From Verrucomicrobiota bacterium (GTDB lineage: Bacteria; Verrucomicrobiota; Verrucomicrobiia; Chthoniobacterales; UBA10450): 35,474 nt of DNA. The notes below the pieces were generated by a model that worked only from the letters and a program-made list of their open reading frames with translations, searched no databases and had not been told where the DNA came from. The stretch is taken from NCBI GenBank assembly GCA_003218475.1, contig QHNR01000123.1, forward strand, positions 1 through 35,474. The letters are read 5' to 3'. How positions within the stretch are numbered: the stretch's first letter is position 1; each line of letters starts with the position of its first letter. A program made the position numbers and the translations under genes. Shown here piece by piece: positions 6,099 to 7,570 of this stretch.

Positions 6099-6116
6099 GC
6101 AGACAATCCTGTCTGC
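6099..6116. repeat. GCAGACA-NNNN-TGTCTGC hairpin, copy 1
   Basis: A perfect 7-bp inverted repeat with a 4-base loop lies between lptB and the riboswitch. The same stem with a different loop recurs at 31701-31718, and a partial relative (GGGCAAGATTGTCTGTGCC) follows at 6131-6149. It could act as a terminator stem for the lpt operon but has no T-run. Confidence 0.6.
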
Positions 6117-6194: not shown

Positions 6195-6200
6195 CCGGGC

Positions 6201-6268
6201 AAGGGCAATGGAGTTTGCCTTCCTGCTGGCAAAGGTGGGAAAACCGCGATGAGCTAATGACTCCTTCC
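6201..6268 (+). promoter_or_regulatory. Fluoride riboswitch (crcB motif) aptamer
   Basis: The stretch matches the fluoride-sensing crcB RNA. A stem GGCAA/TTGCC (6204-6208 with 6215-6219) closes a loop holding GGAGT (6210-6214). After an extra hairpin-like insert (TTCC...GGAA, about 6220-6240) come the conserved AAACCGC (6241-6247) and GCTAATGACTCCT (6253-6265) blocks. GGAGT in the loop can pair with ACTCC at 6260-6264, the diagnostic pseudoknot. The last helix (near 6246-6254) is short and weak. Fluoride riboswitches are known to control antiporters as well as Fluc and CLC-F exporters. Expected behaviour: fluoride binding stabilises the pseudoknot and turns the downstream genes on. Confidence 0.87.
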
Positions 6269-6286
6269 AATCGGAAGGAGTTTTTT
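6260..6286 (+). terminator. Riboswitch expression platform: intrinsic terminator overlapping the Shine-Dalgarno
   Basis: ACTCCTTCC (6260-6268) and GGAAGGAGT (6273-6281) form a perfect 9-bp stem with loop AATC, followed by six T (6281-6286). The right arm is also the ribosome binding site (GGAAGGAG, 6 bases before the ATG at 6287). ACTCC is shared with the aptamer pseudoknot, so pseudoknot and hairpin exclude each other. The hairpin could therefore stop transcription, hide the ribosome site, or both, in the absence of fluoride. Confidence 0.85.
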
Positions 6287-7570
6287 ATGCTCGAAAATAT
6301 CTGGTTTATCGCAGCAGTCTGGATGGGCTTAGCGCTTATCGCCAGTTTGATCTCGATTGGGACCGGAATCTCAGTCGCACTGATCGAAATTCTGGTTGGT
6401 GTTGTTGCCGGTAATCTCGCTGTCGGTTTGGAGGGCGGCACGCTCCATATCGTCATTGCCGGTACCGTTACAGCCGCAGGGCATGTCCATCACGTGCTGC
6501 AATCCACGGAATGGACCAACTTCCTGGCATTGCTCGGCAGTGGCGTGCTCACGTTTCTTGCCGGAGCAGAGATCGATCCGATTTCGCTGAAGGCTAATTG
6601 GCGCGCGAGCGTGCTGATCGGCGTTCTTTCGTTTGCCATTCCATTTGCTGTCGTGTGGCTCTTTGCACAATTCGTTCTCGGCTGGCCTCTGCACCAGGCT
6701 CAAATCGCTGGTATCGCGCTTTCCACCACCTCTGTCGCAGTCGTTTATGCCGTAATGATCGAGGGCGGATTTAGTGACACTGCCATGGGCAAGATGATCC
6801 TGGCTGCATGCTTTATCACCGATTTCGGAACCGTATTGGCGCTCGGCAGCTTGTTCGCCAACTACAATCTCTGGCTGCTGCTATTTGTCGTCGTCACGTT
6901 GATCGTTCTGTGGTTCATGCCACGGTGGACGCAAGCGATCATTACGCGGTTGGGCGCAACGCAGGTCAGCGAACCCGAGGTAAAGTTCATCTTCTTTGTT
7001 CTCTTCTTTCTCGGCGGCCTCGCTACAACAGCTAAAAGCGAGGCCGTCTTGCCAGCCTATTTACTTGGTCTTGTTGTTGCAGGCGTATTTCTTCGCGACA
7101 AAACCCTTGTTCGTCGCATGCGTAGCATCGCGTTCGCTGTTTTCACTCCGTTCTATTTTATCAAGGCTGGTCTGTACGTTTCGCTTCCGGCCCTGTGGAC
7201 TGGACTCTTTGTCATCAGCGTGCTCCTCGCGCTGAAGATGATAACCAAAATCGCCGGCGTGTTTCCTCTTGCTCGATTGCACTACATGAAGATCAAGGAA
7301 GCGAGCTACACGACGCTGTTGATGGCCACGGGCCTCACCTTTGGAACGATTTCCTCCTTATATGGCCTGCAGAACGGGATCATCGACCAGAATCAGTACA
7401 CAATTCTCGTCAGTGTTGTCATCTTGAGCGCATTTGTGCCGACGCTAATCGCGCAGAAATTTTTCCAGCCAACTGTGGAGATGATGCATGCGTGGGAACA
7501 CCTCTACCGCAAGCGTATACGGGTATTAAGCGTGGAAGATGTGGGGGATAACGGCGATGCAAAAAAATGA
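6287..7570 (+). CDS. CPA2-type cation/proton antiporter under fluoride riboswitch
   Basis: The 427-residue protein has about 12-13 transmembrane helices and resembles the membrane part of monovalent cation:proton antiporter-2 (KefB/NapA-like) proteins. It lacks a C-terminal RCK/TrkA nucleotide-binding domain. Visible features include GVLTFLAGAEIDPISLKANW (family 'aGle.d...l'), ALSTTSVAVVYAVM, and ILAACFITDFGTVLAL, the region that usually holds the ion-binding Asp pair; here only TD is seen. The start at 6287 follows a strong GGAAGGAG; an in-frame ATG at 6257 lies inside the riboswitch and is rejected. The regulatory context suggests a role in fluoride tolerance, perhaps by restoring proton or cation balance. 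Direct fluoride transport is unproven. It overlaps the next gene by ATGA. Confidence 0.88.
   Translation: MLENIWFIAAVWMGLALIASLISIGTGISVALIEILVGVVAGNLAVGLEGGTLHIVIAGTVTAAGHVHHVLQSTEWTNFLALLGSGVLTFLAGAEIDPISLKANWRASVLIGVLSFAIPFAVVWLFAQFVLGWPLHQAQIAGIALSTTSVAVVYAVMIEGGFSDTAMGKMILAACFITDFGTVLALGSLFANYNLWLLLFVVVTLIVLWFMPRWTQAIITRLGATQVSEPEVKFIFFVLFFLGGLATTAKSEAVLPAYLLGLVVAGVFLRDKTLVRRMRSIAFAVFTPFYFIKAGLYVSLPALWTGLFVISVLLALKMITKIAGVFPLARLHYMKIKEASYTTLLMATGLTFGTISSLYGLQNGIIDQNQYTILVSVVILSAFVPTLIAQKFFQPTVEMMHAWEHLYRKRIRVLSVEDVGDNGDAKK

Follow-up and report, generated by a model that had tools for sequence, protein, structure and literature searches.

The window analysed here, a 35,474-nt stretch of DNA from a bacterium of the Verrucomicrobiota, contains a short leader in which GGAGU occurs twice and a single ACUCC can pair with either copy. 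The question raised by this locus is whether one hairpin in the leader could control a Na+/H+ antiporter gene as a transcription terminator and as a cover for the ribosome-binding site at the same time. An earlier note had proposed such dual control by a fluoride riboswitch. Its positions for GGAGT (6210–6214 and 6277–6281), ACTCC (6260–6264), the T-run (6281–6286) and the ATG (6287) proved exact, and the features of the leader and its gene are listed below.

6195–6273, + strand: fluoride (crcB) riboswitch aptamer, RF01734 (cmscan, 42.4 bits, E 1.2e-8)
6204–6219, + strand: P1 hairpin GGCA/UGCC, the loop of which carries the 5′ pseudoknot strand (Rfam alignment)
6210–6214, + strand: 5′ pseudoknot strand GGAGU (sequence; invariant in 20 genus relatives)
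6220–6241, + strand: P2-like optional helix, UUCCUGCU / GGUGGGAA (hairpin at the same place across the clade, with compensatory changes)
6246–6254, + strand: P3, 2 bp GC/GC with a GAUGA loop (Rfam alignment; pair counts)
6259–6282, + strand: alternative hairpin GACUCCUUCC-AAUC-GGAAGGAGUU, predicted Shine-Dalgarno (SD) sequestor and terminator-like stem (folding, terminator scan, relatives)
6260–6264, + strand: 3′ pseudoknot strand ACUCC, which also serves as anti-SD within the 5′ arm of the hairpin (sequence, Rfam alignment, relatives)
6273–6280, + strand: SD sequence GGAAGGAG within the 3′ arm of the hairpin (sequence; anti-SD CCUCC in the 16S rRNA of the genome)
6281–6286, + strand: U6 tract, putatively terminator tail and SD–AUG spacer at once (sequence; U-tract enrichment)
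6287–7570, + strand: gene for a CPA2-type Na+/H+ antiporter of 427 aa (PF00999, E 4.5e-34)

The aptamer and its gene

The leader scored above the 34-bit gathering score of the RF01734 covariance model, and the match is the only one in the host genome (3.16-Mb assembly, about 83% complete). The Rfam alignment contains P1 and P3 as well as the long-range pseudoknot and the conserved core. Among 20 relatives, 98.8% of P1 cells were paired and the pseudoknot was paired in 100%; since the pseudoknot is invariant, it provides no covariation signal of its own. The structure-wide covariation score of the 20-sequence alignment, which is in part incorrect for P2 and for the alternative hairpin, exceeded those of all 500 shuffles, which themselves retain relatedness. 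Folding of the whole leader gave a z-score of −3.3. GGAGTTTTTTATG occurs once more in the genome (G000:C142:23800); this copy was considered as a sister switch and dismissed as chance, as it has no Rfam match and plausible genes lie on the other strand.

A score of 42.4 bits is moderate, as might be expected of a chance or degenerate aptamer that does not respond to fluoride. Against this stands the distribution of the motif: 70 of 213 genomes of the order contain an RF01734 match, and in the 61 that exceed the cut-off the match lies mostly ahead of crcB or of this antiporter gene and its core positions are invariant. We consider a chance match very improbable. With about 70 relatives in agreement with the covariance model, the identification as a fluoride riboswitch made in the earlier note is near certain, and the RNA would be expected to bind fluoride.

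The earlier note had also pointed to an extra hairpin-like insert and a weak last stem as unusual features of the aptamer. Both exist, and neither is unusual. When folded alone with its flank, the insert (about 6220–6240) is a real stem-loop with arms TTCCTGCT/GGTGGGAA. The lowest-energy fold of a wider piece (6216–6247) pairs the insert bases differently, so for the helix of the window itself we rely on comparison with relatives. An analogous stem-loop of variable length and sequence occurs at the insert position in nearly all of 69 dissected aptamers, with a mean energy per base of −0.41 compared to −0.11 in shuffles; the insert is thus ordinary for the clade, a helix found clade-wide at this position. 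The 2-bp P3 is likewise common in the genus.

The protein encoded downstream is closest to the CPA2 subfamily model TIGR00932, although it falls below the cut-off of that model. Its close homologues in named records come from Verrucomicrobia soil MAGs, Chthoniobacterales and one Candidatus Udaeobacter sp., and members of the subfamily with an upstream RF01734 match were also found in Gemmatimonadetes, Chloroflexi, Caldimicrobium, Ktedonobacter and other Verrucomicrobia. In line with these homologue loci, a review ranks Na+/H+ antiporters directly after exporters in frequency among the classes of fluoride-riboswitch genes (PMC11139923). The leaders of the genus precede either the same antiporter gene or crcB, both fluoride-stress genes, and in one genome (G077) the riboswitch is followed by crcB and the antiporter gene in tandem.

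Several further observations concern the neighbourhood and the gene family. Upstream of the leader is lptB, which ends 105 bases ahead of the aptamer match; a sigma-70 promoter scan upstream of the leader returned no match, although such a scan is of little weight in this phylum. At 6099–6116, between the lptB gene and the aptamer, lies the palindrome GCAGACAATCCTGTCTGC, four exact copies of which occur in 804 kb of the host genome compared to none of its reversed control; it is possibly a short dispersed intergenic element. The conserved aptamer segment AUGACUCC contains, at 6257–6259, an ATG in the antiporter frame, 10 codons upstream of the start, and is a likely trap for automatic start annotation. 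At two homologous loci (L190:3221-3301 and L191:3267-3340) a fluoride riboswitch is also found downstream of the antiporter gene, and a congener copy of the gene (L043, genome G155) contains an in-frame TAG and looks broken. Three further fluoride aptamers of the genus (L066, L088 and L090) are directly ahead of neither crcB nor the antiporter gene.

Probable sequestration of the start region

GGAGU and ACUCC are both part of the fluoride aptamer consensus, as seen in the Rfam model. Because ACUCC resembles an anti-SD sequence, any GGAGU-type SD located just 3′ of it can compete with the pseudoknot, and the occurrence of GGAGU twice follows from how this riboswitch class normally works and is no coincidence. 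In the window leader, ACUCC at 6260–6264 can pair either with GGAGU at 6210–6214 or with GGAGU at 6277–6281. The second pairing lies within a hairpin of 10 bp with −15.4 kcal/mol and a z-score of −5.9, a stability that none of 200 shuffles equalled. In the unconstrained ensemble the SD is fully paired, with an unpaired probability of at most 0.003 in the free state. When the pseudoknot strands were excluded from pairing, the model still predicted some remaining UUCC/GGAA pairing, as well as pairing of the SD core with the coding sequence, a point against the ON-switch model set out below.

Comparison with relatives indicated that this arrangement is conserved. Of the 58 leaders of the order that have an assigned start, 50 show pairing of the pseudoknot strand no more than 16 nt from the start codon, as do 29 of the 30 genus leaders. 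Beyond the fixed ACUCC, standard pairs vary at the seventh position of the arm (GC in 16, TA in 15 and AT in 6 leaders), a count that uses the minimum-energy fold of each leader and thus leans towards pairing. The AUG itself is paired in several leaders. Four variant aptamers with GGAUU/AUUCC strands (L065, L086, L091 and L098) have no SD, and their 3′ strand pairs with the AUG region (GAAUCAUG); three of these (L065, L086 and L098) are the f4/f5 variants with the AUUCC strand, and the proteins downstream of all four are about 440–625 aa in length. As pairing near the start is found in all but one of the genus leaders and extends to leaders and variants that pair the AUG, we consider sequestration of the start region to be the constant element. 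On these comparative grounds translational sequestration is likely, and we hold it with considerable confidence. The earlier claims of competition between pseudoknot and hairpin, and of an SD inside a terminator-like hairpin, both stand with the covariance model and the roughly 70 relatives behind them.

The use of SD sequences in this host bears on whether the covered GGAG is a ribosome-binding site. In 804 kb of the host genome, which served as the background for SD motifs, starts and terminators, SD motifs precede 10.7% of starts compared to 6.2% of internal ATGs, and 6-nt SD motifs precede 1.8% and 0.3%, respectively; the percentages are approximate because gene calls were simple ORF picks. 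As SD motifs are rare at starts, a strong SD before riboswitch genes is unusual for this genome. One could argue from this rarity that the riboswitch acts on transcription only, the GGAG of the 3′ arm merely complementing an ACUCC that belongs to the aptamer consensus itself and never being used by ribosomes. SD-scarce Verrucomicrobia with an intact CCUCC have been reported (PMC10783764), which would accommodate such a reading. Several results speak against it: the anti-SD CCUCC is retained at the 16S rRNA end of this host, pairing extends to the AUG itself in several leaders, and the genus hairpin adjoins the AUG even where the U-tract is missing and hence cannot be just a terminator there. 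A switch confined to transcription is thus improbable.

Proposed termination at the U-tract

The stem of the window hairpin ends at 6282 and the ATG begins at 6287, which places a terminator-like hairpin within the 10 nt of the start codon that characterize a dual platform, a call made here by stem–start distance whereas the original classification used Rnall thresholds. The ribosome-binding site lies inside the 3′ arm, as in dual platforms. The principal alternative is a riboswitch that controls translation only, in which the hairpin hides the SD and the start region while the U6 tract serves as an unstructured, permissive spacer that brings about no termination of consequence.

A run of at least five U residues directly precedes the AUG in 17 of 30 genus leaders compared to 5 of 550 first-ATG starts in the 804 kb of host genome (Fisher p ~1e-20, uncorrected for relatedness and comparing 10-nt with 8-nt windows). 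Such runs recur in several genera, which argues against a spacer without function in termination. Downstream of GGAG the spacer consists of U at 82% and A at 7%, compared to about 22% T and 27% A at genomic starts. This preference for U over A led us to reject a generic AU-rich spacer as the full explanation of the U-run, and such a bias is more readily explained by a terminator tail than by a spacer that is simply unstructured.

The U-tract is nevertheless variable. A run of at least five U residues is missing in 13 of the 30 genus leaders, among them L076, which encodes a protein 95% identical and has an equally stable hairpin but reads UUUAAUG. The hairpin is kept without the U-tract in L076, L077, L008, L080, L007, L011, L016 and L029, of which L007, L011, L016 and L029 form a subgroup that carries GGAGGAGUUAUG. 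These leaders favour translation-only control, as does the near-universal pairing over the SD or AUG in the genus. Intrinsic terminators also look sparse in the host genome, where terminator-like hairpins at gene ends are only about 2-fold enriched (4.5% compared to 2.0% in shuffles).

Distant homologues show how the two elements can be separated. In L198, L199, L200 and L210 a hairpin containing the pseudoknot strand is followed by a U-tail about 25–75 nt before the start, a distance at which the hairpin would serve as a terminator only. The hairpin of L194 lies directly on the start and lacks the U residues, as expected for sequestration only, and L187 and L190 combine terminator and sequestration as in the window leader. 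The occurrence of the same hairpin and U-tail in terminator-only relatives ahead of the antiporter family argues against control of translation alone, which we regard as unlikely, although less so than control of transcription alone. Given the frequency of the U-tract in the genus compared to genomic starts, transcription termination at the tract is likely but lineage-variable. Of the dual control proposed earlier, comparison lends strong support to the translational half, and support for the transcriptional half is moderate, the U-tract being enriched but absent in many close relatives. On balance we lean somewhat towards true dual control.

A proposed fluoride-ON switch and its relation to known systems

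These results are consistent with a fluoride-ON riboswitch that would control the CPA2-type antiporter gene as follows. When fluoride is bound as an Mg–F complex, GGAGU at 6210–6214 and ACUCC at 6260–6264 would be locked in the pseudoknot, leaving the 3′ arm free, the SD and AUG open and RNA polymerase able to read through. When fluoride is absent, the nascent 3′ arm would displace the pseudoknot strand to form the hairpin, which is predicted always to cover the SD and, together with U6, to release part of the polymerases right at the start codon. Taken as a whole, this explanation is probably correct.

Transcriptional fluoride riboswitches are established to work by forming either the pseudoknot or the terminator but not both; in the Bacillus cereus crcB switch the 3′ strand of the pseudoknot forms the base of an intrinsic terminator hairpin that the ligand blocks (PMC11077080), and the first description of the crcB motif already recorded terminators that overlap it (PMC2864571). 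The window leader resembles the B. cereus switch in aptamer architecture, pseudoknot and pseudoknot–terminator overlap. It differs in that its 3′ arm also contains the SD, the start codon directly follows the U-tract, and the aptamer carries an additional P2-like helix and a P3 of 2 bp. Fluoride riboswitches of Pseudomonas syringae and Burkholderia pseudomallei share the aptamer class and control translation without termination (PMC13273304), whereas in the window leader a complete terminator-like hairpin is accompanied by U6.

Terminators with a ribosome-binding site in their 3′ side constitute the 'dual' category of Barrick & Breaker 2007, after Rodionov et al. 2002 (PMC2258182). The kind of double-acting hairpin proposed here is thus already known from other riboswitches, and the leader would be a case of it in the fluoride class; the 2007 survey predates that class, and the present case would be an ON switch in Verrucomicrobia. 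A limited literature search found no description of the dual form for fluoride riboswitches specifically. An engineered dual-control pT181 attenuator also uses one hairpin as terminator and ribosome-binding-site cover and is reported to lower leak (PMC5435934), although that expression part is controlled by antisense RNA rather than by a ligand. Na+/H+ antiporters are already known to be associated with fluoride riboswitches; the gene in the window belongs to a CPA2-like subfamily that is found in several phyla.

We tentatively propose that in this lineage of Verrucomicrobia the hairpin has repeatedly changed between forms that only terminate, forms that only sequester and dual forms, on an unchanged aptamer, and that strong SDs next to riboswitches in an SD-poor genome have been kept mainly as a regulatory handle; this may well prove too broad. 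If it is true, the 30 close leaders amount to a natural experiment on the share of control that a single hairpin exerts at transcription and at translation. Naturally occurring close leaders that either have or lack the U-tract provide a set for measuring the contribution of each control layer. With this locus, the fluoride class in uncultured soil Verrucomicrobia would join those with a dual terminator/SD platform, and a CPA2-type antiporter subfamily of several phyla would be tied to fluoride stress.
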